Below, one piece after another: positions 5,605 to 62,261 of a DNA stretch of 64,000 nucleotides (position 1 is the first letter of the stretch; each line of letters opens with the position of its first letter). Location: positions 3,652,995 through 3,716,994 of the forward strand of contig JAUPFP010000020.1 in assembly GCA_036925085.1 (NCBI GenBank), given 5' to 3'. Position numbers and translations under genes: made by a program. This DNA is from Brachycybe producta. Taxonomy: Eukaryota > Arthropoda > Diplopoda > Playtdesmida > Andrognathidae. The notes beneath the pieces are model-generated. The model saw only the letters and a program-made list of their open reading frames with translations, had not been told where the DNA came from and made no database searches.

Positions 5605-5857
5605 GGGACAGACTAATCGTAGGTCACTAGGTGACCTACACTTTCAGACAGCTATTTGGAGAACTGTGGGTCACTCCGTGACCTATACACTTTTTTATAT
5701 TCTGGGGGCCTGCACCCCTGAGAACCCCTTACAACAAGCTTAATTTAATGTAACCCCACCTAATCATCGATATAAAAGAAGTTCTAAAGTGTAGGTCACT
5801 GAGTGACCTACAGTTCTGAAGTGTACGTCACCTAATGACCTACGATTAATCTGTTAC
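5605..5857. mobile_element. GGGACARACTAAT MITE, copy 2 (short array)
   Basis: The left end GGGACAGACTAATCGTAGG is at 5605 and the right end TACGATTAATCTGTTACC is at about 5857. The inside holds the shared block CAAGCTTAATTTAATGTAAC (5735-5755) and three scattered copies of the GTAGGTCACT palindrome, not an expanded array. This looks close to the state before minisatellite expansion. Confidence 0.7.
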
Positions 5858-11229: not shown

Positions 11230-11983
11230 TTAAGAGGCTACATCGCAAAATGACTTCGAAAAATCTCCACAAAGAGCGCTACCATCGTTTTTCTATTGAG
11301 CCCATAGACCCAATGTTAAAAGAAAAAATGTAAATTTTTAAAATACACAGTCGCGGCAACATGTTTATTTTTCATATTTAAAATTGTCCAATTTTGATGG
11401 TTCAAAGTGCAATGTGCACTTCAAATATATGGTCATCTAGTGATAGAATGACAAAAAATTGGTAAGTGCGGTTCTATTTTTAAAAACTATTTCAAAATTG
11501 CGAATTTCTAACTCATGTTAGAAATCCATTGAGTACGGCCCTCGTAAGCAAAAAAAAACACCCATTAAAATGCTTGTAAAAATACCTAAAAATCATTTTA
11601 AAAAACCACAATTAAACCACATTGGCGCGCACACGTGCTGATTTTTTTCTGGCTTTTAAAAATTATGTTTACGTATTTTTACCAACATTATAATGGATGT
11701 TTTTTTCAAATTTGGGTTGACTCAATGGAGTTAGAAATTCGCAATTTTGAAATAATTTTTAAGAATAGAACCGCACTTACCAATTTTTTGTCATTCTATC
11801 ACTCGATCCGCATATATTTACGGTGCGCATCGCACTTTGAAAAACTAAAATTGGACATTTTTAATGCGTATTTTAAAAATTACCATTTTTTCTTTAACAT
11901 CGGGTGTATGGGTTTAATAGAAAAACGATGCTAGCGCTCTTTGCGGAGATTTTTTGAAGTAATTTAGTAATGTAGCCATTTAA
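11230..11983. mobile_element. TTAA-ended ~800-bp foldback element (TTAAGAGGCTAC family), copy 1
   Basis: The left arm begins TTAAGAGGCTACATCGC and runs through AGAGCGCTACCATCG, ACAGTCGCGGCAAC and TGATAGAATGACAAAAAATT. The right arm is its reverse complement and ends TGTAGCCATTTAA. The arms are about 350-380 bp. Other copies lie at 14552, 17413, 18672, 28739 and 51036. The plus-strand 99-codon frame at 11635-11934 is part of the right arm. Confidence 0.8.
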
Positions 11984-14551: not shown

Positions 14552-15368
14552 GTAAAGAGCCTACATCACAAAATTACTTCGAAAAATCTCCACAAACAGC
14601 GCTAGCATCGTTATTCTATTGTGCACATAGACCCGATGTTAAAAGAAAAAATCGTTAATTTTTAAAATAGACAGTCGCGGTGGCAACATGTTTATTTTTC
14701 ATATTTAAAGTTGTCCAATAATAAGTTTTCAAAGTGTAATATGCACCTTAAATATATGTTAATCGAGTGATAGAATAATAAAAAATTGGTAAGTGTACTT
14801 CTATTTTTAAAAAATATTTCAAAATCGCGAATGTTTAACTCTTAATGTTAAACTCCATTGAGTATGCCATAATAAGAAAAAACCCATTAAAATGCTTGTA
14901 AAAATACGTAAAAATAATTTAAAAAAAAAAAACAGAAAAAGAATCAGTAAGTGCGCCAATGTGTTAGCTTCACTGTGGGTTTTTTAAAATTATTTTTAGG
15001 TATTTTTACGAGCATTTTAATGTATGTTTTTTTTTTTCTTATTTGGACGTACTCATAACGTACTCATAAGCGTTAGAAATTCGCGATTTTGAAATACTTT
15101 TTAAAAATAGAAGGACACTTGCCAATTTCTTGTCATTCTATCACTAGATCAGCAATATATTTAAGGTGCACACATTGTAATTTTGAAACTTAATATTGGA
15201 CAACTTTAAATATGAAACATAAACATGTTGCCGCTGCAACTGTGTGTATTTTAAAAATTAACGTTTCTTCTTTAAAATTGGGTCTATGGAGGGCTCAATA
15301 GAAAAAAACGATGCTAACGCTTTTTGCGGAGATTTTTCGAAGTCATTTTGTGATGTGTAGCCTCTTAA
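14552..15368. mobile_element. TTAA-ended ~800-bp foldback element, copy 2
   Basis: The left end is TAAAGAGCCTACATCAC and the right end GATGTGTAGCCTCTTAA. The centre holds GCGCCAATGTGTTAGC and a repeated TGGTTTTTTAAAATTATTTTT-type stretch. It is nearly full length, with both arms recognisable. Confidence 0.8.
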
Positions 15369-17412: not shown

Positions 17413-17980
17413 TCATACTTCAGAGGTTACATCACAAAATTACTTCGAAAAATCTCCGCAAAGAGCGCTAGCATCGTTTTTCTATTGAGCCAATAGACCC
17501 AATATTAAGGAAAAACGTTAGTTTTTAAAATACACAGTTGCGGCGGCAATATGTTTATTTTTTATATTTAAAGTTGTCCAATATTAAGTTTCCAAAATGC
17601 AATGTACACCTTAAATATATGCTGATCGAGTGATAGAATGACAAAAAATTGGTAAGTGCGGTTCTATTTTTAAAAAAACTATTTGAAAATCGCGTATTTC
17701 TAAATCTTATGTTAAACTCCATTGAGTAAGCACTCGTAAGCAAACTACATTCATTAAAATGCTCGTAAAAATACCTAAAACTAATTTTAAAAAACCACAA
17801 TTAAACCACAGTGAAGCCAACACATTGGCGCACGTGCTGATTTTTTTCTCTGGATTTTTAAAATTATTTTTAGGTGTTTTACGAGCATTTTAACGGATGT
17901 TATTTTCTTATTTGGGCGTAGTCAATAGAGTTTAATATAAGAATTAGAAATTCGCAATTTTGAAATAATTTTTAAAAATC
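17413..17980. mobile_element. TTAA-ended foldback element, copy 3 (right arm truncated)
   Basis: The left arm begins CAGAGGTTACATCACAAAA and is complete. The right arm stops after GAAATAATTTTTAAAAATC at about 17980, where unrelated sequence starts. Confidence 0.75.
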
Positions 17981-18671: not shown

Positions 18672-19474
18672 TTTAAGAGGCTACATCACAAAATTACTTC
18701 GAAAAATCTCCGCAAAGAGCGCTAGCATCGTTTTTTGAGCCCATAGACTCAATGTTAAAGAAAAAAATGTTAATTTTTAAAATACACAGTCGCGGCAATA
18801 TGTTGATTTTTCATATTTAAAGATATCCAATTTTGATGGTTCAAAGTGCAATGTGCACCTTAAATATATGCTGATCGAGTGATAGAATGACAAAAAATTG
18901 GTAAGTGCGGTTCTATTTTTAAAAAGTATTTCAAAATCGCGAATTTCTAACTCTGATGTTAAACTCCATTGAGTACGCCCAAATAAGATAAAAACATCCA
19001 TTAAAATGCTGGTAAAAATACGTAAAAATAATTTTTAAAAAACCACAATTAAACCACAAGACAACACATTGGCGTACGTGCTGATTATTATTTTTTAAAA
19101 TTATTTTTAGGTATTTTTACGAGCATATTAATGAATGTTTTTTGCTTACGAGCGCGTATAACTCCATAGAGTTTAACATAAAGAGTTAGAAATTCACGAT
19201 TTTGAAATACTTTTTATAAATATAACCACACTTAACAATTTTTTGTCGTTCTATCACTAGATCAGCAATATATTTAAGAGGCACATTGCACTTTGAACCA
19301 TCAAAATTGGACAACTTTAAATATGAAAAATAAACATATTGCCGCCGCGACTGTGTGTTTTAAAAATGAACTTTTTTTTCCTTTAACATCGGATCTATGG
19401 GCTCAATAGAAAAAAAAAACGATGCTAGCGCTCTTTGCGAAAACTTTTCGAAGTAATTTTGTAAAGTAGCCTAT
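18672..19474. mobile_element. TTAA-ended foldback element, copy 4, abutting a foldback MITE half
   Basis: The left end is TTTAAGAGGCTACATCAC and the right end is GTAAAGTAGCCTATAAG. The right end runs directly into AGTGATTGAGATACCC (19476-19530), half of the family clustered at 1.6-2.6 kb. Both arms are well preserved. Confidence 0.78.
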
Positions 19475-24275: not shown

Positions 24276-24390
24276 AAAATATTTAACTGTTTTCGGCGGC
24301 TGGATAATGGCTAGCTATAAAATTATTCGGCAGATTTTGGCTGCAGCAAAAAAATGTGGCTAATGGCGGCGGTTGAGGGGGCCTAGGTAC

Positions 24391-24595
24391 ACAGGCAATT
24401 AGAAATCGGGACGAACACAAATTGGCTCCGCCCTTTTTATGACGACCGGCAACTTCTAATTGGTTTATTGTGTGGTTCGACGTTGAAAAAGGCGGAGCAT
24501 GTGATTTCAGACTACATAACCAACCAATTAGAAGTTGCGTTCGTCATAAAAAGGGCAGAACCAACTTGTGTTCGTCCCGATTTCTAAATGCCTGT
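24391..24595. mobile_element. CAGGCAATTAGAAATCGGG MITE, complete copy
   Basis: The ends are ACAGGCAATTAGAAATCGGG and CCCGATTTCTAAATGCCTGT. The 205-bp element has arms of about 80 bp and a centre with GTGTGGTTCGACGTTG. Open frames on both strands here come from the inverted repeat. Confidence 0.85.
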
Positions 24596-25331
24596 CTCTC
24601 TTACTGCACAAGTCCAGCGGCACACAACGGAGCGTGTAGAGGGAGTTTGTACAATCTTCATTTAATTTCGCTGCTTTTCTGTTTCTCACAGCTGAGCTAA
24701 ACTTGCAGCGATGTACTTGCATCGTCAAGCGGATGACTTGCGCTAGTCTCGGACCCAAGCAGTAGACATGTGCATTGTGCAGTTATTGCCAGTTAATATT
24801 GCAATAAGTAGCAATTTGTTGATCGGTGGTATAATTTTCATTATCTTTGACAACAACCATTTCATTCATAAAAAACGTCTGCAAGAAAACAAGAACTCAT
24901 TTTTAAAAGTGAGAGAGATATAGAGAGTGAGTGAGAGAGATAGAGAGAAAGACCCGTCCAAAAGCTAAACAGATGTCGACCAAATTACTTTCAAGAGTCG
25001 AGAACCTATTCTAAATCTTTTCCACAGTATCGTCAGTATTATTTGATAAGCAGCTTCCCCCCCCCCCCCCCCCCTCCCCCACCCAATTCAAAATTAAGTC
25101 TACATTCAAATCTCGTTACAATTGGCTCACTTCATTTCAATGCATCCCTTTCCCCTCCATTTGTATCAGCATTTATTACCCTCAAGTTAAGTTATTCATA
25201 CACACTTCGCATCAATAAATTGTGATACCGCATTTTTAGAAGCAACTGTTGAATCTTTTAATATTTCAATAAGTAAATTTTAATTCAACTCAGTACACGT
25301 GCAATCGAGCTCGTGAGCCGTGTTGCAGAAA
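24596..25331. other. Gene-free stretch with poly-C tract
   Basis: It contains (GA)n near 24910-24950 and about 18 C at 25057-25074. No gene is recognised. Confidence 0.4.
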
Positions 25332-25535
25332 CATGCAATTAAAAATCGGGACAAACAGAAGTTGTCTCCTCCCTTTTTATGATGACCGGCAACGTCTAAT
25401 TGGTTTGTTGTGTGGTTCGACGTTGAAAAGGGCGGAGCATGTGACGTCAGACTACATAACCAACCAATTAGAAGTTGCGTTTGTCACAAAAAGGGCGGAG
25501 CCAACTTCTGTTCGTCCCGATTTCTAATTGCCTGT
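25332..25535. mobile_element. CAGGCAATTAGAAATCGGG MITE, complete copy
   Basis: TGCAATTAAAAATCGGGAC on the left and CCCGATTTCTAATTGCCTGT on the right. It lies about 740 bp from the previous copy in the same orientation. Confidence 0.85.
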
Positions 25536-33994: not shown

Positions 33995-34615
33995 GGTAAT
34001 GAAATGGTATGTTTTTTTGGAAATGTTTTACAGCTTTTGTAAATGGGATATGGCTTATATTATTGCCTTTGGAAATGTTTTACGAAGGCGTTTACGTTTG
34101 TTGCCCTTCAAAATGAGTTATGCCTTATACTATATTGCCTTTGGAAATGCTGTAAGGCTTATATGATTGCATTTTTAAATGCCGTAAAGGCTTACATGAT
34201 TTCATTTTAAAATGCCTTTAAGGCTTTACAATGACTGCCTTCGGGAATGCCGTAAGGCCGATAGTATTACCTTCTTAAATGCCTTAAGGCTTACATGATT
34301 GCCTTTTGAAACGCTTTGAAGGCTTATATTATTGTCTTTGGGAATGCCTTAAGGCCTATATGATTGCCTTTTTAAATGCCTGAAGGCTTATACGATTGCC
34401 TTTTTAAATGTCACAAGGCATATACATGTATGATTCCATTTTAAAGCGCCTTTAAGACTTACAATGACTGCCTTTGGGAACGACGTAAGGCCTATAGTAT
34501 CGCCTTTTTAAATGCGTTAAGGCTTACATTATTGCCTTTGGAAATGCTTTAAGGCCTATGGTATTGCCTTTTTAAATGCCTTACGGCTTGTATTTTTGCC
34601 CTTGGAAGTAAGTGG
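33995..34615. repeat. Degenerate ~33-bp minisatellite
   Basis: About 17-18 tandem units of the type GCCTTTTTAAATGCCTTAAGG followed by CTTATATGATT, with unit length varying by a few bases. Units alternate between TTTTTAAATGCC and TTTGGAAATGCC forms, which suggests a higher-order dimer. Confidence 0.85.
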
Positions 34616-36379
34616 AAGTGGTCAATGGGGATAGTTTTGTTTTTTGGGTTGATATTTGTATATTAATTTTATTTATATGTGCATGTGTATGTTGCTTGAC
34701 AATGCTTAATGCTGCATGTGGACTTTTATGTCCCTCTGCCATAGACCTATTTGGCTGCTAGCAGAGTACTAATTGTAATTGAATACAAATTTTTCTTTCT
34801 GGGGCTACAAACAAATTTTTTTTGTGACAGCAAACAACCAAACTGCAAATGTTAATATTACGCAGTTTCATTAATGAGCAATGATAGGGGGGGGGGGGCA
34901 TTACATATACAATCAAGAGTATATTACTTTACTATCTGTTGCACAAAATTATGCCTATGAGGCTCTAATAGAAGTCAAGATGCAGAAAACGCCATCTGAA
35001 AACAAAAAATTTCTCTAATTTAAGTAATTCTATTCTGCTCATTTATTACCTTTTTTTCTGCTACTTTTCTGTCAAAATAACATTATTTTAATTAAATAAA
35101 TTTTATTTTCAAGTCAGCATATTCAGCATGTGGGTTCTTGGCCTTATTTATAGGTTAGCATTTTTACAAGACAATATTCACAATGCCATTTGAATTAAAT
35201 TTTGAGTGAATGGGGGAAGATTTTGTATTGTATGTGTTAATAGGTTATTTTGTCAATGCATTTCTTATGCTGCTTTTGGACTTAAAATTGTCCTTCAGCC
35301 ATAGGCCCTGCGCTGCTTGCAGAATAATTTCGATTTTGTAAAATATAATAAATGTGAGTTATTAAGCATTGTAACAATTTTCTTCTCAACAAGTGAGATA
35401 AAACAATAAAGCGTGGTGGTGGTGACGTGTTTTTTTGTTCGAAGACAGTTTGAGAACAGAAGTAAAAACATTTTTTTCTATTTTTTTGATAACTTCTTTT
35501 GGTACCAAGGAGTCATTTTATTCTCCTTCATTAATAATCGGAAAACAAAATTTAAAAAAAAGCTAATGAAAATCAACTTTTGTTGTACTTACATGACTAT
35601 TACTTGGAAGTTTTCCTCAATTCAAACTTGTTCCGCAGTTGCAATATTTCCATAATATTACAAAAACAACTTTTGTTTCGGTCGTGTCTTGTTTTTGTTT
35701 TTTTAACGAACCAAACTTGATTCTTTTATTAAAACTGGCTTTAATCATTCTGGGAGTTATTTTCTTATATGCCAGACATTTGAAAAAAAATACGGGAGAC
35801 AAAAAAAGGAAACTGCAAACGTTCAAATAATAAAATATAACATTTTTATTTTCTGTTTCATTTTGAAAATTAGCTTGAAACAAACAAAATCCTGAATATA
35901 TTTTGCTCAAAACGTTTAAATTTCCTTACTAAAGAATACAAGATGGTTGGATATTTTTTTTTGCTGCAGGAAAATGAAGACAAGAAGGAATTCGTTCAAC
36001 AACATACGTTAGAATTGCAATTGCACTTTATTTTCAGTTGTTGATGGCAGAAAGATTTTTCTCATTTTCCATACAACTCCTGGACAAAAGTTAGTGACAA
36101 TCGTCGAAGTTTGCTTGCAGAAAACATGGAAAAAAAACTACTTGTAATTCAATTAAGTTATGGTGTTTCTTTGAATAAATATATTTAAAAAGCTCAATTT
36201 TTAAAAAATTACTTGTGATTTTTTCTCTCTCACAACGATCACTTTTGCCGTTCCTCGGAATTTTGTGATATCTGGATCCCAAATCCCAAACGAATTTAGC
36301 TATTTTTAGCCCGAATTTCCGAGCTCAGGATATAATACCATAATACACCATGCGTTGTTAGTAATGTATTACTTTAAGG
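34616..36379. other. Gene-free stretch with a dispersed repeat
   Basis: Blocks at about 34690-34800 and 35230-35345 share GCTGCWTKTGGACTT, GCCATAGRCC and TGCTGC(T)TGCAGA motifs, and a third copy lies at 44030-44125. They may be the 3' tail of a retrotransposon. A G tract lies at 34887-34897. Open frames at 35413-35910 on both strands show no family pattern. Confidence 0.4.
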
Positions 36380-36612
36380 CAGTGTTTCCCAAACCATTCC
36401 CAAAGATGGCCTCATTAGATAAGCTGTCGATGGACACGCGGACCACCAACCTGAAAAAGACCTACTGGGACATGCATTGGCGTCAAGTAGCCCTGAGCCA
36501 ATACTGTGGTACACTCCATTCCCCCATATACGAGCACAGTGTCAGGTATATTAGTTATTGTTGACTAAGCTAACTATAACTTTTTTTTCTTAACTTCCGT
36601 TCTGACAGTTGA

Positions 36613-37683
36613 GTGCACTGGGACTAATCACAGGTCACTCAGCGCCCTGCACTGGGACTAATCACAGGTCACTCAGCGCCCTGCACTGGGACTAATCACA
36701 GGTCACTCAGCGCCCTGCACTGGGACTAATCACAGGTCACTCAGCGCCCTGCACTGGGACTAATCACAGGTCACTCAGCGCCCTGCACTGGGACTAATCA
36801 CAGGTCACTCAGCGCCCTGCACTGGGACTAATCACAGGTCACTCAGCGCCCTGCACTGGGACTAATCACAGGTCACTCAGCGCCCTGCACTGGGACTAAT
36901 CACAGGTCACTCAGCGCCCTGCACTGGGACTAATCACAGGTCACTCAGCGCCCTGCACTGGGACTAATCACAGGTCACTCAGCGCCCTGCACTGGGACTA
37001 ATCACAGGTCACTCAGCGCCCTGCACTGGGACTAATCACAGGTCACTCAGCGCCCTGCACTGGGACTAATCACAGGTCACTCAGCGCCCTGCACTGGGAC
37101 TAATCACAGGTCACTCAGCGCCCTGCACTGGGACTAATCACAGGTCACTCAGCGCCCTGCACTGGGACTAATCACAGGTCACTCAGCGCCCTGCACTGGG
37201 ACTAATCACAGGTCACTCAGCGCCCTGCACTGGGACTAATCACAGGTCACTCAGCGCCCTGCACTGGGACTAATCACAGGTCACTCAGTGCCCTGCACTG
37301 GGACTAATCACAGGTCACTCAGTGCCCTGCACTGGGACTAATCACAGGTCACTCAGTGCCCTGCACTGGGACTAATCACAGGTCACTCAGTGCCCTGCAC
37401 TGGGACTAATCACAGGTCACTCAGTGGCCTACACTGGGACTAATCACAGGTCACTCAGTGACCTACACTGGGACTAATCACAGGTCACTCAGTGACCTAC
37501 ACTGGGACTAATCACAGGTCACTCAGTGACCTACACTGGGACTAATCACAGGTTATTCAGTGACCTACACTTTTTCACATTCTGGGGCTCAGCCCTCCCA
37601 GACCGCCTGCAACAAGCTTAATTTAATGTAACCCCACCTAATCATAGATATTCCCCAGAATGACCTACAATTAGTCTGTCCCC
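36613..37683. mobile_element. GGGACARACTAAT MITE, copy 3 (expanded)
   Basis: The right side (37571-37683) has CAAGCTTAATTTAATGTAAC and the end ATTAGTCTGTCCC, matching copy 2. The left end is GGGACTAATCACAGG at 36620, shortened within the array unit. It sits inside the hAT-like element at 36380-37826. Confidence 0.75.
36614..37570 (+). repeat. 34-bp tandem array, about 28 copies, with a mutation gradient
   Basis: The unit is CACTGGGACTAATCACAGG followed by TCACTCAGCGCCCTG, an exact 34-bp period. Copies up to about 37287 carry CAGCGCCCTGCAC and are identical. The next four or so carry CAGTGCCCTGCAC, one has CAGTGGCCTACAC, and the last four CAGTGACCTACAC; the very last also has GGTTATTCAG. The last form completes the palindrome AGGTCACTCAGTGACCT found in the sister MITEs. 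Confidence 0.97.
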
Positions 37684-37829
37684 CAAAAGAGCGCAGAATC
37701 GTTTTTACTTAACAGTGACATTTTGTGCTTGAAGCCCCTGTGGAGCCCCTGCTATTGCAGGGCATGGGGTAAATTGCCCTTCCCCCTCTGGACGGCCCTG
37801 CACAGACCACAGTTTGAGAAACACTGCTT

Positions 37830-39160
37830 TTAAAGAGTATACTGTTCGAAAAGGACCAGACAAATTTGTTAGTATTGGGGCAGTCAAGATTAATAAAGAG
37901 TTGAAGAACAACAAGTTCTAGTTTAAATAAGGCCATTGATTTATATGGGGTTTAACATGTAGATAGCAATAATGTATCAATTAATAATCCTAACGAAAAT
38001 GATTCGAACATGAAAACATACTACATTTATAACTTTCATCATTAAATGGGAGGGGGAAGGCGTAAAGGAAAATGATATTTCAAATGACTGCAATATTATC
38101 TTGAACATTTCCGATAATATCTGACTAAAGTCATCAGAAACAATCCTGTGGCTTATGTAAAAGCCTAATACCATGGCAATAGGCAACAACTATTAAGAAC
38201 GGCAAATCGCCATTCCACTTTGAGGACATTGTAGTACTTAAAACGACTACGAGAGATTGGTTTTATTATATTAATGATTATTCAAATGCACTTCTAAAAT
38301 CCATAAACAGTAATTGATAATCAATTACCAGCAACCCACGCCGCTCAAAAGCTTTTGACCACTGGTGGCACACCTAAAGGTGCAAAACAAATCTCTTAAC
38401 AGGACAGGCAAAAAGCCTGGAGGACCTCCGGGTGTGACAGATAGAATTGTTTTCCAGGGTTACCATCAGAAAAAGCTAAGCACATCTGTGATTAAGCACA
38501 TTTTGGGCAGTCATTTATCCGGTGGTCTGTGATGTCAACATACAAACTGGTGAATCTCATCGTGAAAATGAAATTAAGAGAATATGCAAATTACGTATTT
38601 AAAGCATTTTCCTCTTTTGTTTCTCCAGTTGTGACTCCGATTGGAGTTCTGTAACATATCCACAGCCCGGCTTGCAGCTGGGACATTAAAAATGCGTTAT
38701 TTTGTTTTTCAAAATAGAAACTCCAACCATGTTTTGGTACAAATTATTCTGAAATTCTTTGAAAATAGAAGTATATTATTAAATTTTAACTATTATACTA
38801 CTTAAAGTTGCTTCTAAAAACTGGAGTCGTATGAAAATGCTACATTAGTAGAGAGTTTGCGCCACTATATGACGATAACTTTGTTTACAACAAATACAAT
38901 GCTAATTGATAGTCGTTTTCGATGTCACAAAGTTGTTGTCGTCGTTGCTTTTAGTTTGCGCCAAACGTGACATTAACCACTTCACAAATACAACAAAATG
39001 CACTTATGACCAAATATTCGTACGACTATAACTTTCAGAGCAATCGTAGCAGTTCTAATGGGAACGATAAATACAAATTTTGGGTTGTAGTTGTTGTAAA
39101 TTGCAGTTGTCGTGCATAGTTTATGCGTGGCGCAAACTATCTAGTAAATTAGTTACTAAG
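37830..39160. other. Gene-free stretch
   Basis: No coding pattern. Small inverted repeats occur near 38360-38440. Not otherwise recognised. Confidence 0.35.
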
Positions 39161-48800: not shown

Positions 48801-50319
48801 CAAGTCGCAAGTGTTCGCAATGTGTATCAAAGGCCAATCAAAATTCATCTACCAGAATGCACTGTGCAAAATAAAATTAGCCCCGTTCCTAGTCCTTACG
48901 CTCGTACATTCCATCTCAATCGATTATGAGGGTTGGAGGCAAAGGCTAACAATGATTTTAGGTAAAGTAGTTGGAGTATGCTGACGGAGGCTGTTTATTT
49001 GGTTTATGGCACGGATTGGTATGACACGAATAGTACTAATGTAATCCCTTGCAGGGTTGCCACCGAATCTCATTCCTGAAATTCCCGACTTCATCAGGTT
49101 TTACATATTTCTTTGTTAAATCTCCCACAATTCTTTTGAAAAAAATTTCCACTTTCCAGACATTTTTTTCCAGGTTGAGTGGCAAACGCTGTCTTGATAA
49201 CTAGCCTCCAGCCTCAAACCAGTGTTGTCGTTTGTCATGGGTAAAGGCTAGTTAGTACACACTGCGATACTTTGTGGCGAAACAATGCCGCAAGGCTATC
49301 GCAAATACATTGTTGCGGAACAGAATCGAGAACCACGATAGTCCTGAAACATTGCTCTGTGTCCGCTGTCTTCCAGCCAAGCCGATTCCGTCCGGGCCTA
49401 GTGTGTATTTATCTATTATATTTTTTTTTTGGTTTTTATTCCATCCAGAATTTTCCTTTCGATTCGGCTGGTTTTAGTTTGGGGCAACCTTAAGAGGCTA
49501 TCGACAATATTTGGTATAGACGTTTAACATGGCGTGTGTATTTGGTTACAGGCAATTAGAAATCGGGACAAACAGAAGTTGGCTCCGCCCTTTTTATGAC
49601 GACCGGCAACTTCTAATTGGTTTGTTGTGTGGTTCGACGTTGAAAAGGGCAGAGCATGTGACGTCAGACTACATAACCAACCAATTAGAAGTTGCCGATC
49701 GTCATAAAAAGGGCGGAGCCAACTTCTGTATGACCTGATTTCTAATTGCCTGTGTTTGGTTTTCGTTTAGTCTTTCCGTCGTCTGCGCTCGCACCTTCTA
49801 CACTTCTACACTTTTCCGATCAACAGTTACTTCGCCGCTTATTTAACTTGAAACCATACTTATTTTTTTATTCACTGTTTTATAGCAGCTGCAATTCAAC
49901 AACTACTTTATTCCCAAAAAAAAAAAATCTGATCTTTTAAATTGACAAGTTGTAATCTCAATTCACTTTATTCAATCCACAAAGAGAAGAACTGAAAAGT
50001 GGACAACTAAATTTAAAATCTCATTGGCTTAATTGACTCTAGGGCGCGTCTTTCTGACACTTTTTCACTTCGAAAACATGAATTCTGGGCTAATTAATTA
50101 AACTTTTTTTCAGAGGTGTTGTCTTTGAAAGGCGTTCAGAAAAGATTAGATTGTATTTGGAGTTGGATAGACAGATGAATGGCAAGCGTTTATTATTGAA
50201 AAGGGGCGCTTTTTGATAAATGATTTATCGGATGACCCAGCTTTTATTTCTGAGACTCCGTTTTTTTCCCTTCTCTCTTCAATTTCATTCAAGGCGATTT
50301 TTTTATTGTTGTAACTTTT

Positions 50320-50361
<42 letters not shown>

Positions 50362-53300
50362 CCTCTCATATTTTCAGCCAATGTGTTAATGAGGTTCAAA
50401 CGCTATATTTTGCTAACAAGCGGTGCTTGGACTCAGTACAAAAATATTGTTAGCATGCTGAATGCAACAGGAAGCAAAACGTTGAGAGAAAGAGCAGCAA
50501 GTGTTTTTTTTCGTGGCTGATTATTTTTTCCGCCCAAATCAGAGGAGGAAAAGAAACAATGAAAAGCATTGTGGAAAAGTTGCATTTCATTAAAAATGGA
50601 AGATATGCCCGGCTGTAGACAAGGCAGTAATATTTACACGTGATTCCTGGCACTGTTTTCTTGAATAAAATATAACTACCAAGAGCCCGGTTGTCACGAG
50701 GCTAGTTTAAAAGCCACTAGTAAGTTATTATTTACACGGGGATAGTAAAAATCCAGTGGCAAGTGGCTAGTTTTATTAATAATTTAATTATTTCTTTCGA
50801 ATACCACTTCGTCACGATGCCGAACAGCAAATTCACTAGCCCCGTAACTGAGCAAGTTGGTGTTTCCAAGCAATGACCGGAAGAGGGCAGTAGACCACGT
50901 GACCGATAAAAATACAGTATAGTAGTCGCGCGTCTTCAAATCGAGGGCAAGTTACTAGTGAGGCTGTTTCTAGTGAGTAAATTTACAGATCTGCAAGCAC
51001 TAGCGGCTAGTAAAGTAGCTACATAACACACCTCAGAAGAGGCTACATCACAAAATTACTTTGAAAAATCTCCAAAGAGCGCTATAGCTTCGTTTTTCCA
51101 TTAAACCCATAGACCCGATGTTAAAGAAAAACACGGTAATTTTTAAAATAAACCGTCGCGGTGGCAATATGTTTATTTTTCATATTTAAAGTTGTCCAAT
51201 ATTAAGTTTTCAAAGTGCAATGTGCACCTTAAATCGAGTGACAGAATGACAAAAAATTGGTAAGTGCAGTTCTATTTTTAAAAACTATTTCAAAATCGCG
51301 AATTTCTAACTCTTATGTTAAACTCCATTGAGTACGCGCTCGTAAAGAAAAAAAACATACATTAAAATTGCTCGTAAAAATACCTAAAAATAATTTTAAA
51401 AAACCAGAAAAAAAGCAGCACGTGCGCCAATGTGTTGGCTTCACTGTGGTTTAATTGTGGTTTTTAAAATTATTTTAGGTATTTTTCCAACGTTTTAATG
51501 GATGTTTTTTCTTTTCTTCTTATGAGCGCATAATCAGTGAAGTTTTAACATATTAGTTAGAAATTCGCGATTTTAAAATAGTTTTTAAGAATAAAAGCAC
51601 AAATGCTTGCAAGTATGTTTGGCCGTTTTTTTTTTAATCACTGGAATTGGAATTTCAGAAAATAAATTTCATGACTTTTCCAGGAGGATTTAACACATCT
51701 TTTGCAAAATTCACCGACTCTCGTGAAAATTCTGATTTCGTCACATTTCCTAGGTTGCGTGGCAATCTCGGTTAAGTGATTCATTCAGCTATATTATACG
51801 GTTCTGGTTCCTAAAGCACTGTTCCAAGGTTTGTAAACGTTGCTTTTGAAATGCAGCGTAAGATTGCCAAGCTGCTTGTAATTCAGCAGCTTAGTTGTTT
51901 TTTTTTTGGGGGGGGGGGCGATTAAAAATGCAACCAGTAATAACACAAAAGTACGGATCCCTGTTGAGGACAAAGAATATTTTTTACCTCGTCCGGACGA
52001 GATACTAAGTCGGGTCAGGATGAAAGAATGAACATTGTAGGGTAACTAAAACCTGAAACAGAATTCATTCAGAATTAACTGAACACTACTAACATAGGTG
52101 CGGAACAACATAACCATTTTTTAAATTAAATCATGTGATTTTTTTTTTACAAAAAAGTATAGTGCTCCTCCAATTCTATATGCAGTCTGTTTCGGGGTTT
52201 AGAGTTACCCTACAATGTCAATCTTTTCATCCAGACCTGACTTATTATCTCGTCCGGACGAGATAAAAAAAATATTCCATGTCCTCAAGAGGGCTCCGTA
52301 CATCAGTTATTTTTTTTAGCGCTTTTCCGGTTTATCCACATTATTTTACTTTGATTTGAAGCCCAATTAATTGCAAAAAGGCAATCCATACAAATTCCAT
52401 CAAACAATGCAAGCGACAAATGTTGCTTGTAACTGTGTCAGGAAAGAAATCCTAAAAAAAGTCTGAAGAGTTGCAATTACACACAGGTACACACAAACCA
52501 CACGTAAAAAGCCCCCCCCCCCACTTTTTTTTTTACTCGCGAACAAAACATGTACAAGTCTAGTACATACCATAAGTATACAGGTTTGGTACCCATAATG
52601 AGGGGAATTTGAAATTGAGGGGTGGAGCCGCTCGTTAACGACATGACAAACAAACGATCTTTGGCCAACATTAATCAAACGCAGCAAAAACGAATGAATC
52701 CGTCCATCAAGTGTCATACGAGGAGCTCATAAGCACATCAATCATAATCATCATCTTCGAGCAGCTCTTTCTCTTTTTTTCTCTCTCTCTCTCTCTCTCG
52801 TAAAAAGACTTACGAAGAGATACGGTATTTCTAACACCAAGACAGAAAAGAAAAAACGAAAGATCATCGTGACGAGGATTGTGTTGTCGAAGATCGTTAT
52901 CGCCGTTCTTTGCTTACGAGGCAATTTTAACTAATGCGAAAGAATGTTGCAGTTCGGAAACTAAAACATCACTCCCAACTCTGGATAATCTGCGTTTCGA
53001 GAACAATTTTAAGCAAAACTTGCAACTGTTTTAAAAACTCGAAGAGCAAATAAATCACTTAAAAAGTAGGCAGTTTTCGAACTGTTTAAAAATCTGGCTA
53101 AAAACCAGATTTTGATTTGTTTTCCTAGACGCAATTTTAATATCGAAATCACCAGAGAGAACTCATGATTATTCTCGTTTTATTTTTTTGTAAATTTGGA
53201 AGTATTTTAGAAACTAGAAGAGTAACTGAATCGTTTCAAGGGGATTTGTTTGCTGCCTGCCGTCTTTACAAATGAACTTTTTCTGGTGGTTTGAAAATTA

Positions 53301-59300: not shown

Positions 59301-62261
59301 CCTACTAAATTAGTGAATTACCTTACTCCCAATGGAAACCCATTCGGAGACTGATTCGAACCTCCATCGTCCCAACGTCCACGTTTCGAAGGCGGTCCTC
59401 CGCCTCGTCCACCGTCACCTCGTCTCGCTCCCCTCGGACCTCCACGACCTCTGCTTTCCCCACCGCCCAATCCGGCAGTTAGAGATGGCGGACGGCCTCT
59501 TCCATTACCACCGCCGCCACCCATTCCAGGTGAACCATCCCATGATCCCTGCATCGGACCGCCTCCTCCTCCGCCTCGCATCAGATCCATTTGTTCGCCA
59601 TGCATCCCTGCAGAAAATCAATCAAAATTGCAGGAGTGTTGCAAGCCGAAAAGAGGTTCATTTAAATCAAATTATATTTTTTATACAATAAATGGTAAAA
59701 ACAAACTACAACAAATAGATTCGGGTCGGTTTCAACTTAGCCACCTCTAATCACAATCAGCTAATGCTTACTGGAAACCAGATCGAAATGGTTCGCGAAG
59801 ATCCACGAACTGATCAAAATCGGTTTCCAAAAAACCGCAAACCCCAAACCGATTAACGGGTTCCAAACCAAGCAGAAACTGTTCGGTTCTACCCACTGCC
59901 ACCTCTAATGCCCACAAACACGTTGCAAACGTAAGGAAACGCACAAAAAACAAAAATGGTGGAGAAATGGCGGAAAACATGAAACTGCTTTCGAAGCAAG
60001 GAAAACGCAGTTTTAAAAAATACATATTTTTTGCACCACTATTTAAATTCTCTGTCGTTCCGCGGGTTTTCCCGTTCCGTCCGTTTCAGCAACTTTCTCT
60101 ACATTTGCACGCACGTGCTTTACAATGAGAACTTTCACGTGTTCTACAATGAGAACTTGCATGTGTTCCCGCGCCTTTCATATTCTTACCCCTTTTTCTC
60201 ATGTGTTTAAACGCTTACCAGCACATTTGCACGTGATTTACATGCGCGTTTCCCTGCTTTTCCGCGCGTTTTGCTTTTTATTATTGAACTGTTTCATTTC
60301 ATTTGCACGTGGATATACATGAATTCACGTGGGTACGCAATTCGACGTCTACGGCCGCAGCTAAGCCCAAGGAGCGAATTTATCGGTACAAGTACGTAGG
60401 TTTTTAAAAGCATTTATTTAAAACAAAACACATTGTCTTTTCTAAACGTAACGAATAAATGAATCGAGGGAACCCTTTTTTTGTTGCCGATCTGTTCAAA
60501 AATAATTATTTAATAACAGTTTTAAAACCTCGATAAAACCTAAAATCGGTGTTTTAAAACTGTCATAAAACGATTACTTCCGAACAGGTCATCACAAAAA
60601 ACGGTTTCAATCCCTGCATTTATTCCTCAAGTTCTGAAAAGACAATTGAGTTCTGTGTTTAATAAATGCTTTTAAAAACCTACATACCGGTATCGGTAAA
60701 TTCGTTCAAACAAGACTTCTGAAAAGAATCACTAGAAAGTTTTTGAAAGTATTGTAAAAAAAAAGTATTAAAATACTTAGTGATTCTTTTCAGACGGTTT
60801 ACGAACAGCCAGACGATTTTTTAAAACTATGATTCATCTGTCTTTCACGAGCAAAATCAAGACAAACAAAACTGTATTTTACAATTTTCTAGATGGTTAG
60901 TTAGTTCAATCACTTCAGGGTTATTTCTATGTTGATATTTTTCAAAATAAACTTTTTGTCGACAAAAATTCAAAAATATCGTCAGCTTAAAGTTCGGTCC
61001 TTTCCAAACTGGCATACAAAGCTTATTTTGAAAAATATCAACATCAAAAGTCCCTTAAGAACAGGCATGTAAAGACAGGGAGATACAGTTGTTTGCCTCG
61101 CCCGTTGGAAATTGAAAAGGACCGGGCACGTGAGGTCAGACCACATAACAAACCAATTAGAAGTTGCTGGTAATCATAAAAGGGGCGGAGCAAACGACTG
61201 TATCTTACTGTCTTTACTTGCCTGTCCCTTAAGGCGACTATGTATTTATTTTGCTTTCAACCCCACCAGGCGGCGCCACTGAAATGCCCCAGACTTTTTT
61301 GTAAAAATTCAAATTGTTTGTTGAAACTAGAAAGAATGGTAAAAAATTATGTTTAAGTTTTGTCATAGCATTCATTATCTTAAAAAATAAACATTTAACC
61401 CGTTTTTTGGTTTTTCCATTGTCATTTCCAATGAAAACCAATAATATTTCGCCTTTTTTTCTTCAAAACTGTCAATAAAAAGTTTATTTTGAAAAAACTT
61501 AACATTATCACCAACTATTCTAGTTTCTAAAACACTTCGGATTTTTGTCATAATGTTTCTTATAAAAAAAAAAAACGTTCCCTTTGAAAACAATTTTTTT
61601 CAAAATCTTCGAGACCTCGAACGTAACAAAAGCCACTGCAAGCGCGCCAACCAAAGCGACGAAAACAAATTAAATACCTATTCAACCACGTTAAACTAAG
61701 ATCTCCTTGATTTAGATTTTAAAGACCTCAAACAAAAGGTTTTTTCTTCAGATCTGGTTTTCAAAATATAAACCAAAAGGGGATCCGTACCACCACCACC
61801 CATGGGTCCACCACCGCGCCCCATAAGGCTCGTGGCTCCTCCTCGTGGCCCACCTCGTCCACCTCTTCCGAGAAGACCTCCACGTCCTCCTGGTCCACCA
61901 CCACCGCCTCTTCCTCCTCCACTCATTCCTCCACCGCCTCCTCGTCCACCTCCGCCTCTCATTCCAGGTGGACCACCTCTGGAACCACCTCGACCACCAA
62001 ATGGACCACCGCGAGACATCGGTCCTCCACCACCACGTCCTCCTCCTCGATCACCACCCATTCCACCTCGTCTGAAACAAGAAAACATAACAAAACCAAC
62101 GTTAGACCTACTACGCAAAGACGATCCTTTCAAGCTAAAAAAAAAACTGACCCTCTTGGTCCACCACGTCCTCCCATTCCACGTCCGCCGCCACCTCTTG
62201 ACCCTCTTCCACCTCGACCACGTCCGTCTGTAGAAACGTCCATCAAATTACCGATTTCCAT
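42543..62261 (-). CDS. Spliced gene for a Gly-rich RGG/YGG low-complexity protein (7 coding exons)
   Basis: Seven exons on the minus strand join as 62261-62152, 62071-61791, 59607-59322, 58081-57875, 56303-55990, 45792-45669 and 42822-42543. All introns are GT-AG and codon phase carries across every junction. The product is about 530 residues. The first ~200 are dense in RGG, GRGG and GGPR repeats, then comes a basic patch PPSKRGRWDDGG, then a Gly/Tyr/Ser tail with YGG, GSY and DRYGG motifs, ending PPPQRRY and a TAG stop. RGG boxes bind RNA and are substrates of arginine methyltransferases, and Gly/Tyr tails drive condensation, so a nuclear RNA-binding role is likely (family knowledge plus inference). 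No RRM, KH, DEAD-box or zinc finger is seen. An RNA-binding domain could lie in exons beyond the window if the ATG used here is not the true start. Two exons need one-base corrections. The exact orthologue is not recognised. Confidence 0.75.
42823..44257. other. Intron 6 of the Gly-rich gene, repeat-poor part
   Basis: No coding pattern. The plus-strand 119-codon frame 43649-44008 is unrecognised. The 44030-44125 block repeats one seen at 34690 and 35230. A G tract lies at 44226-44238. Confidence 0.4.
44259..44525 (-). mobile_element. Intronic Helitron 3' end with helicase tail relic
   Basis: On the minus strand, 44412-44365 encodes HGQLYVALSRSKNPNN and is followed by Ile. Next come the perfect hairpin CCCGTCATTTATGACGGG (44288-44271), eight bases, CTAG (44262-44259) and T. 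This is the best preserved helicase tail in the window, and it lies in sense orientation inside intron 6 of the Gly-rich gene. Confidence 0.87.
44526..45668. other. Intron 6 of the Gly-rich gene, upstream part
   Basis: It contains G and C tracts at 45172-45181 and 45266-45280 and a near-pure A tract at about 45630-45650. Nothing else is recognised. Confidence 0.4.
45669..45792 (-). CDS. Exon 6 of the Gly-rich RGG gene, with an apparent +1 frame lesion
   Basis: The donor GGTG|GTAAGT at 45669 is strong; the acceptor CGAAAAG|GT at 45792 is weak. Entering in phase 1 from exon 5, the frame reads GVDSSQGAGVVGVSGGVG, then runs into a stop. One base later the frame GTGGSGSYGGSYPGASYAKDYGGG is open and exits in the phase exon 7 needs. 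Removing one G from the GGG near 45743 would restore a single frame. An alternative acceptor GATAG|TA at about 45783 would use one frame throughout (VAKEPELLASAAVSGTGG) but gives an atypical composition. I favour a one-base lesion or assembly error. Confidence 0.55.
45890..46740. repeat. ~770-bp duplicated block, copy A (intron 5)
   Basis: From about 45967 (TTATTGTTTCACAATTGAAA region) to 46737 (ACCTCTAGAGGGTTGTA) the sequence matches 56375-57147 at high identity, by eye well above 90%. The right half holds GTTCGCAAACAGTTCTAGA and GGAACTGTTCTAGAACGG motifs that recur, diverged, at 45890-45965 and 57365-57490. It may be an old hAT-like element, not a simple segmental copy. Confidence 0.8.
46753..46825 (-). 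tRNA. tRNA-derived SINE head or degenerate tRNA pseudogene
   Basis: The minus strand has an A-box-like TGGTAGCACAGTGG (46821-46808) and a B box GGTTCGAATC (46773-46764). The 7-bp acceptor stem GCCTTGG/TCGAGGC pairs with two G-T wobbles, over a total of 73 bases. The D and anticodon arms do not fold properly, so this is not a working tRNA. It starts right after duplicated block copy A and is absent from copy B. Confidence 0.65.
46826..49547. other. Intron 5 of the Gly-rich gene: low-complexity stretch
   Basis: Short palindromes of ACTATCGATAGT type lie at 46848-46885. A possible inverted-repeat element with TGGTCGTTTTTAGTTGACCA and GTGGTCACGAATG lies at 46975-47230. A C tract lies at 47536-47552, (CT)n at 47823-47841 and CT/C-rich runs near 48270-48380. 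No gene is seen. Confidence 0.4.
49548..49753. mobile_element. CAGGCAATTAGAAATCGGG MITE, complete intronic copy
   Basis: The left end is ACAGGCAATTAGAAATCGGG and the right end is GATTTCTAATTGCCTGT. The 206-bp inverted repeat has the same centre as 24391 and 25332. Confidence 0.87.
49754..51030. other. Intron 5: stretch with (CT)n
   Basis: A (CT)n microsatellite lies at 50322-50357. Around 50700-51020 the motif GCCACTAGTAA or CACTAGC and its complement recurs many times, perhaps a further decayed foldback. No gene is seen. Confidence 0.4.
51036..51606. mobile_element. TTAA-ended foldback element, copy 5 (right arm truncated)
   Basis: The left end is AGAAGAGGCTACATCACAAA. The left arm and centre (GCGCCAATGTGTTGGC) are present, and the right arm stops after TAGTTTTTAAGAATAAAAGC. 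Confidence 0.78.
51951..52301. mobile_element. 351-bp foldback element with CTCGTCCGGACGAGAT palindromes
   Basis: GTACGGATCCCTGTTGAGG at 51951 pairs with CCTCAAGAGGGCTCCGTAC ending at 52301. Within each arm lies the perfect palindrome CTCGTCCGGACGAG (about 51988 and 52246). The arms continue through CATTGTAGGGTAACT and AGTTACCCTACAATG. One copy only is seen in this window. Confidence 0.85.
52302..54837. other. Intron 5: mostly unrecognised
   Basis: It contains (CT)n at 52780-52799, halves of the TTTCTAGTTTCTAAAACACTT foldback family (53195-53240, 53545-53640) and a GCGCCACTGCAGTGGC palindrome near 53420. The 108-codon plus frame 53641-53967 is unrecognised. Confidence 0.4.
54838..55390 (-). 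pseudogene. LINE reverse transcriptase relic, interrupted by a hAT MITE
   Basis: On the minus strand, about 55288-55242 reads VRTLLEYSSPIWNPF and 55222-55187 reads IEKIQRGAARFV then KGKY, the conserved end of the CR1/Jockey-like LINE RT domain (LVRPxLEYxxxxW, then IExIQRRAARF). The two parts are in different frames. A 52-bp hAT-like MITE at 55122-55173 splits the copy just downstream. The tail at 54838-54905 is shared with the relics at 40.5 and 25.6 kb. Confidence 0.82.
55122..55173 (-). mobile_element. 52-bp hAT-like mini-MITE with perfect 8-bp target duplication
   Basis: The ends TAGGGATGGAGCATTCGAAT and CGTCCCACCTCTA are those of the 400-bp family at 7271. The flanks GTATTTAC (55114-55121 and 55174-55181) are identical 8-mers. 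Almost the whole interior is deleted, leaving two ends and a GGATCACC core. Confidence 0.9.
55402..55680. mobile_element. Foldback MITE (AGCCTGGTTTACACGGGTAG ends)
   Basis: A 279-bp inverted repeat begins AGCCTGGTTTACACGGGTAG and ends CTACCCGTGTAAACCAGCCT. The arms are rich in TAGAGTA and TACTCTA units (AGTAGAGTACTGGGTAGAG). Confidence 0.87.
55990..56303 (-). CDS. Exon 5 of the Gly-rich RGG gene: Tyr/Gly/Asn segment
   Basis: The acceptor is TTTTTCAG|A at 56303 and the donor TATG|GTGAGT at 55990, both strong. The 314 bases encode MTGNYPDNNSYPGGNDY, a DMSGGGGGYGTADRGG stretch, a Pro/Asn-rich piece (YDPNQGRSDIQPL) and a tail ending SGYGAARYGGYG in phase 1. This is the least repetitive part of the protein and the best probe for an orthologue search. 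The following intron is 10.2 kb and filled with repeats. Confidence 0.8.
56375..57147. repeat. ~770-bp duplicated block, copy B (intron 4)
   Basis: It matches 45967-46737 with small indels, for example in the C tract of CGAAAGCCCCCC (56515-56532). It starts about 70 bp upstream of exon 5, while copy A starts about 175 bp upstream of exon 6, in the same orientation. A diverged third piece follows at 57365-57490. Confidence 0.8.
57875..58081 (-). CDS. Exon 4 of the Gly-rich RGG gene
   Basis: The acceptor is TTCTACAG|A at 58081 and the donor is TCTCA|GTAAGT at 57875, a near-perfect consensus. The 207 bases encode VPSGGNGYPGEDGG, then MNRGSDDRGGYQSLQPGR and a GGVGGVGGGPNGAGYG run ending TYRSQ. 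Here the composition changes from RGG to Gly with Tyr, Asn and Pro, and Arg becomes sparse. The final CA joins the A of exon 5 to make Gln. Confidence 0.8.
58268..59231. mobile_element. TTAA-ended element in intron 3 (TTAAGAGCCTAGA ends)
   Basis: ATTAAGAGCCTAGACACTCC at 58268 and GGGACTCTAGGCTCTTAAA at about 59212-59230 are inverted ends about 960 bp apart. The same end type occurs at 39163-39687. The interior has no transposase-like frame. Confidence 0.6.
59322..59607 (-). CDS. Exon 3 of the Gly-rich RGG gene
   Basis: The acceptor is TTTTCTGCAG|GG at 59607, whose two bases complete the Gly codon left open by exon 2. The translation starts GMHGEQMDLMRGGGGGG and includes SWDGSPGMGG, further RGG repeats and the basic patch PPSKRGRWDDGGSNQSPNG, a plausible nuclear-localisation or RNA-contact segment. 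Two donors overlap at the end (GTAAG|GTAATT and GGA|GTAAGG). Only the first, ending at 59322 in phase 2, keeps the next exon open: its AG joins the A of exon 4 to give Arg (LGVR|VPSGG). Confidence 0.8.
59737..59915. mobile_element. GAACCGGTT-type hAT-like MITE fragment
   Basis: GAAACTGTTCGGTTCTACCC then ACTGCCACCTCTAATG at the right, with GATCAAAATCGGTTTCC inside, resembles the 22160-22490 region. A second CCACCTCTAA end at 59740-59750 suggests two partial copies in tandem. Confidence 0.5.
59916..61060. other. Intron 2: mostly unrecognised
   Basis: Repeated CACGTG, TTTGCACGTG and ACGTGTTCTACAATGAGAAC motifs lie at 60108-60330. TACCGATAC-type sequence near 60380 and 60690 pairs across AAACCTACRTA arms (60398 and 60675), a possible foldback of about 330 bp. 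No gene is seen. Confidence 0.4.
61061..61226. mobile_element. CAGGCA MITE, third subfamily
   Basis: ACAGGCATGTAAAGACAGGG and TACTGTCTTTACTTGCCTGT are inverted ends. The centre ACATAACAAACCAATTAGAAG and ATCATAAAAGGGGCGGAGC is shared with the CAGGCAATTAG family. Confidence 0.75.
61791..62071 (-). CDS. Exon 2 of the Gly-rich RGG gene: core RGG block
   Basis: The acceptor TTGTTTCAG precedes 62071 and the donor GGTG|GTACGG ends the exon at 61791. The 281 bases enter with one base completing a Gly codon (GG|A) and leave in phase 1 (G|). The 94 codons read RGGMGGDRGGGRGGGG and onward with repeated RGG, GRGG and GGPPGMRGG units and no negative charge apart from one Asp. This is the densest RGG region of the protein and the likely RNA-binding and arginine-methylation segment. 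On the plus strand the same DNA gives a long Pro-rich open frame, which is only the complement of Gly codons. Confidence 0.8.

Follow-up and report, generated by a model that had tools for sequence, protein, structure and literature searches.

How does a short internal repeat of a transposon come to form a tandem array whose units change in order from one end to the other? The question is raised by a 34-bp array in the 64,000-nucleotide stretch of the Brachycybe producta genome analysed here (the window), for which an initial annotation proposed a satellite with a stepwise mutation gradient, lying in a MITE that lies in turn in a hAT-like element. TRF places this array at 36614-37571, one base beyond the end at 37570 previously given, with 28.2 copies of a 34-bp period, 99% matches and 0% indels; the unit length and the count of about 28 copies thus stand, and only the span is altered. 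Cutting the array at GGGACTAATC delimits 28 units, and these fall into one-way blocks of 19 + 4 + 1 + 3 + 1, bearing out the stepwise change along the array:

36614-37571, + strand: 34-bp tandem array of 28 units, full units from 36620 (TRF and unit-by-unit comparison)
36620-37265, + strand: units 1-19, identical and most derived, with the end CAGCGCCCTGCACT (unit comparison, as in the four lines below)
37266-37401, + strand: units 20-23, intermediate form, with the end CAGTGCCCTGCACT
37402-37435, + strand: unit 24, a single intermediate with the end CAGTGGCCTACACT and G at the A-to-C site
37436-37537, + strand: units 25-27, ancestral form, with the end CAGTGACCTACACT and the palindrome AGGTCACTCAGTGACCT intact
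37538-37571, + strand: unit 28, with an ancestral right half and a changed left arm

Unit 28 shares the end CAGTGACCTACACT with units 25-27, but in it GGTTATTCAG replaces GGTCACTCAG. The block order is not due to chance: complete sorting of the five unit classes into blocks has a chance probability of p = 7e-9, and neighbouring units differ on average by 0.22, as against 1.21 after shuffling, with 0/5000 shuffles as low. As 28 tandem units of 34 bp, with the exact core at one locus only, the array is a minisatellite; it has neither the long arrays nor the genome-wide abundance of satellite DNA (958 bp, one locus), and the term 'satellite' was too strong for a single 1-kb array at a single locus. 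The six bases before the first full unit (TGCACT, 36614-36619) are those of the derived-unit end, TGCACT, and not those of the ancestral TACACT, which may be chance or the trace of an exchange with the flank.

Read from 3' to 5', the net changes in the units are A to C (via G), A to G and T to C. GC-biased conversion was considered, since all three are towards G or C, and was set aside, three sites being too few. The direction of change was read instead from the wider family: at the three changing sites the 3' base is present in 147/150, 147/150 and 148/150 family matches elsewhere (66 loci, i.e. 68 less L001 and L039, scanned on both strands with overlaps allowed and up to six substitutions), figures that lean towards the consensus because only matches within six substitutions, on both strands, enter them. 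Since the family units share these bases with the 3' focal units, the latter represent the ancestral state and the long 5' block the derived one. Block order and family bases together support the earlier proposal of an ancestral 3' end and a recent, homogenised 5' expansion.

The genome search covered 295 Mb in 442 contigs. All exact matches of the core CACTGGGACTAATCACAGGTCACTCAG (27/27) lie inside the focal array; at up to three mismatches there are 20 further places, made up of unit 28 plus 19 at other sites. Two of the latter sit on C96 at a distance of 34 bp. The core in reversed form, taken as a control, gave no genome matches at this threshold. The expanded focal unit is private to this array. 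Its 19 identical units show zero differences across 646 bp. The MITE family is old: across the other 39 of the best 40 candidates, identity to the unexpanded sister is 83-89%, and the right part of the focal MITE is 80-94% identical to other copies over short stretches (again among the best 40 candidates). Set against so old and diverged a family, 646 bp free of differences indicate that the array grew far more recently than the MITE inserted.

Judged by its sequence, the 34-bp unit already existed as an internal repeat of this foldback-like MITE family, two further members of which lie in the window, one with a 67-bp unit and one unexpanded, both as the initial annotation had described them:

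37572-37669, + strand: rest of the focal MITE body, with TTTAATGTAACCCCACC common to the sister at 5744-5760 (sequence comparison)
37670-37682, - strand: right terminal repeat, GGGACAGACTAAT on the - strand (sequence comparison)
742-1213, + strand: sister element with a 67-bp array of 4.9 copies (TRF and sequence comparison)
5605-5857, + strand: unexpanded sister element of about 250 bp (sequence comparison)

The family has the properties of MITEs, with dispersed copies of about 250 bp, ends GGGACAGACTAATC / GATTAGTCTGTCCC (the focal copy being without the left repeat) and target duplications of constant length. At 9 bp and zero offset, 7/27 copies have a perfect duplication and 9/27 match at no fewer than 8/9 positions, and other offsets at this length give 0 or 1 perfect duplications (30 loci, L009-L038, of which the 27 with both ends found were counted). 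This length agrees with the 9-bp target duplication described as typical of MULE transposases (PMC3169594, in excerpt). A Pfam search of 7 ORFs and an Rfam search of the window gave no matches. Members have GGGACAGACTAAT ends and several AGGTCACTNAGTGACCT palindromes; the annotation would have been overturned by sisters devoid of the palindrome or of the terminal repeats, and the sister copies have both. In foldback elements the inverted ends consist of tandem subrepeats in variable number; in this family tandem palindromic subrepeats are found by TRF in 42/55 sequences, mostly in about two copies. Exact palindromes TAGGTCACTNAGTGACCTA occur at 229 places in the genome, each palindrome being counted on both strands, and the control at no places; among 50 matches listed, 10 fall in 4 clusters with a spacing of 32-34 bp. 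The limits given for the focal MITE, 36613-37683, hold at the right end, where the terminal repeat occupies 37670-37682, and fail at the left, where the terminal repeat is absent and the array reaches the insertion border: position 36620 is GGGACTAATC, a junction internal to the family, and not the left end GGGACAGACTAATC.

The surroundings of the MITE comprise the following features:

36380-37826, + strand: non-autonomous hAT-like element, host of the MITE (inverted ends CAGTGTTTCCCAAAC / GTTTGAGAAACACTG; relatives elsewhere in the genome)
36611-36617, + strand: GAGTGCA, probable 5' part of the MITE target duplication (aligned to GAGTGTA at the relatives' empty site)
37689-37695, + strand: GAGCGCA, probable 3' part of the MITE target duplication (alignment to relatives)

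The inverted ends of the outer element are of the CAGTGTTTC type, and its CAGTG-type ends are what we take to be hAT-like; its arms were reported at 36373-36394 and 37812-37833, with 86% identity. The signal of 8-bp duplications among its relatives is weak but exceeds the control (at least 6/8 in 5/14, control 7%). The proposed nesting is upheld both by the presence of the ends at 36380 and 37826 and by relatives that do not contain the insert: 14/18 aligned relatives are continuous across the site, the remaining 4/18 being too gapped (judged by eye). Of 13 relatives, seven are homologous to the left flank as far as 36615, one as far as 36618, four as far as 36610 or 36611, and one as far as 36588. 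GAGTGCA and GAGCGCA match one and the same stretch of the host and probably represent the duplicated target of the focal MITE. This duplication is short and imperfect, and unaccounted-for extra bases adjoin the right end, a point that counts against the explanation favoured below. The hAT-like copy also has extra sequence near its own right end (37728-37800) that is absent from the aligned relatives.

Sequence comparison shows the nesting, the family origin of the unit, the ancestral 3' end and the private 5' block. As to how the array grew, we consider it probable that a transposon-borne minisatellite underwent recent, one-sided growth by register-shifted copying, the copying being deduced from one allele. 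A MITE of the foldback-like family, with its 9-bp duplications and GGGACAGACTAAT ends, would have inserted long ago into the hAT-like element. Its internal 34-bp unit would then have duplicated and overrun the left end, such that the tandem run replaced the left part of the MITE, including the terminal repeat. The run would have grown one way, to the 5' edge, by repeated register-shifted copying, for which unequal sister exchange, synthesis-dependent strand annealing or slippage are candidate routes; each new substitution would have been multiplied by the following round and the 3' units left behind. The explanation invokes no host function.

The state of the left border also bears on an alternative that we regard as unlikely, if worth weighing: a longer but otherwise ordinary array, in which unequal crossing-over kept the units similar, with a homogenised middle part and diverged edges, may have lost its 5' part together with the left end of the MITE to a deletion, the gradient being the surviving edge. 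The absent left terminal repeat, an array that abuts the border and the CA common to flank and unit are all in its favour; however, since the probable target duplication still adjoins the array, such a deletion would need an endpoint practically coincident with the insertion border. The same features may, in a reading we think decidedly doubtful, reflect a growth front fixed at that border, where the repair of breaks or of stalled forks at the end of the MITE would copy the adjacent unit. Were this so, every round would add units only at the 5' edge, erasing the terminal repeat, so that strict nesting, a homogeneous 5' edge, a lost left end and a surviving target duplication would all follow, and the TGCACT of the flank, like the ends of the derived units, would be a trace of flank exchange. 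That the count of identical units is an artefact of assembly is very improbable: whilst the number 19 comes from the assembly alone, the array is shorter than 1 kb, lies within a 4.33-Mb contig, has unique flanks and contains ordered variants.

The folding of the unit is predicted to weaken as the unit becomes more derived. From the ancestral to the most derived form, single-unit folding energies are -5.8, -3.6, -3.8 and -1.7 kcal/mol, folding z values for three units run from -5.0 through -1.75 to +0.42, and stem pairs number 8, 7 and 6 of 8 going from unit 25 to unit 1 (unit 28 also has 6). These trends could suggest that loss of the hairpin drives growth, with broken-palindrome units copied more freely and the gradient a product of selection for weaker folding. 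Comparison with other arrays makes this highly implausible. The mean number of stem pairs is 6.39 in the focal array and 7.75, 6.83, 6.60, 6.38 and 6.40 in five others, and 137 dispersed cores, a selected set, average 6.68; as the array means (6.38 to 7.75 of 8) bracket the dispersed value, no general folding rule emerges. Moreover L002, an array of 17 copies, has 13/16 units intact. A first count, giving 7.39 for arrays and 6.68 for dispersed cores, was discarded for the arrays, since the motif used missed units that had over five substitutions and caught only 4/28 focal units; the dispersed mean of 6.68 is retained from it.

The remaining family members indicate how far array growth extends beyond this locus. 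TRF was run on 55 sequences, i.e. 53 loci and the two window sisters. Among loci fetched with the unexpanded sister 0/30 reach three copies, and among those fetched with an array or palindrome, a group picked for arrays, 21/23 do so, the focal locus included. The main periods of the sister arrays are 32, 34, 38, 49 and 66/67 bp (TRF), and such differing periods point to several separate beginnings. The initial annotation held that the family seeds tandem arrays repeatedly; several arrays of different periods agree with this, but among the eight arrays compared in frame strict nesting is seen in the focal one only.

Spatial order was compared across the arrays by shuffling. In a layout of nine arrays, L070, L069 and the window array at 878-1199 were out of frame; the in-frame repeat took eight, using the first 18 units of L070 and the first 15 of L069 and excluding 878-1199. 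Order is evident in 2/8, with 0 of the 5000 shuffles as low as the focal array and 7 as low as L070. No significant spatial order was detected in L069 (1804), L002 (552), L003 (525), L072 (1717), L077 (490) or L005 (2521), of which L077 and L005, with 5 and 4 units, have too few for the test to have power. A gradient as a family-wide trait was accordingly rejected, 6/8 arrays showing no significant order and strict nesting being found in the focal one only, and the lack of such order in most sister arrays counts against recent one-sided copying as the best explanation. In L070 the nesting is not strict (unit 15 reverts), and the diverged edge beside a homogeneous block in this array counts in favour of the deletion alternative for the focal locus. 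L070 (G000:C2:6478700-6479850) and L069 (G000:C9:2165750-2167200) both have a 38-bp palindromic unit, in 23.8 copies each (TRF). At L003 (G000:C3:11516851-11520185) a 34-bp array at about 1488-1857 has the palindrome-breaking base of focal units 1-23. This array too has C at the first of the changed sites (AGGGCAC, read on its own strand), which also counts against the favoured explanation, since this state either had a second origin, arising twice, or predates the focal locus by shared descent.

The conversion of transposon pieces into minisatellites is already well described: slippage or unequal crossing-over duplicates a piece of the element, and amplification follows (PMC6947457, in excerpt). 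The focal array is of this same kind, with the steps in unusually clear order. As regards origin, the best analogues are Tetris (PMC4079207) and Tm1 (PMC3169594), both as presented in excerpts of the papers. In Tetris, a foldback transposon of Drosophila virilis, TIR-220 repeats within the element are amplified, so that the element's own tandem repeats give longer homogeneous arrays, and its target duplications of 8-10 bp are comparable to the 9 bp of the focal family; the Tetris unit is, however, about 220 bp, in up to 66 copies and in heterochromatin, as against 34 bp, 28 copies and one locus, and the likeness is one of description (PMC4079207). The Tm1 Mutator/foldback elements of root-knot nematodes resemble the focal family in their 9-bp target duplications, in composite ends that contain short tandem motifs in varying number, and in having MITE-like members; they differ in a known MULE transposase and a motif of about 14 bp rather than 34 bp (PMC3169594).

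For the block pattern the best analogue is MSY1, a human Y-chromosome minisatellite whose 25-bp repeat is predicted to fold into a hairpin; annealing of strands from sister chromatids has been proposed for MSY1 (PMC2599865, in excerpt). Predicted hairpin repeats, constant unit length and substitution variants in blocks are common to both. In contrast to the focal array, the excerpted account of MSY1 does not describe a transposon origin or present the blocks as an age series, whereas alleles and mutation rates are known for MSY1 and the focal array is represented by one assembly (PMC2599865). A literature search gave several related cases, and in the excerpts obtained no mention of the focal MITE family was found. 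The focal array is a legible record of tandem array growth that alters no known rule; its family offers several trials within one genome, with arrays of at least five periods on one palindrome, the focal one ordered.

Further repeats are present in the window. A second, older-looking array at 34034-34607, with periodicities of 32, 64 and 233 bp, about 69-81% matches and a unit like ATTGCCTTTTGAAATGCCTTAAGGCTTATATG, is unrelated in sequence to the focal array. Dispersed, related copies of another repeat, with CCAATTAGAAGTTG and TGACGTCA-like motifs, lie at 24390-24595, 25330-25535, 49547-49752, 2730-2915 and 61104-61203, and a repeat of about 400 bp has five dispersed copies at 11232-11634, 14555-14956, 17421-17823, 18675-19070 and 51037-51432 (families D3, D7, D8, D12 and D16).
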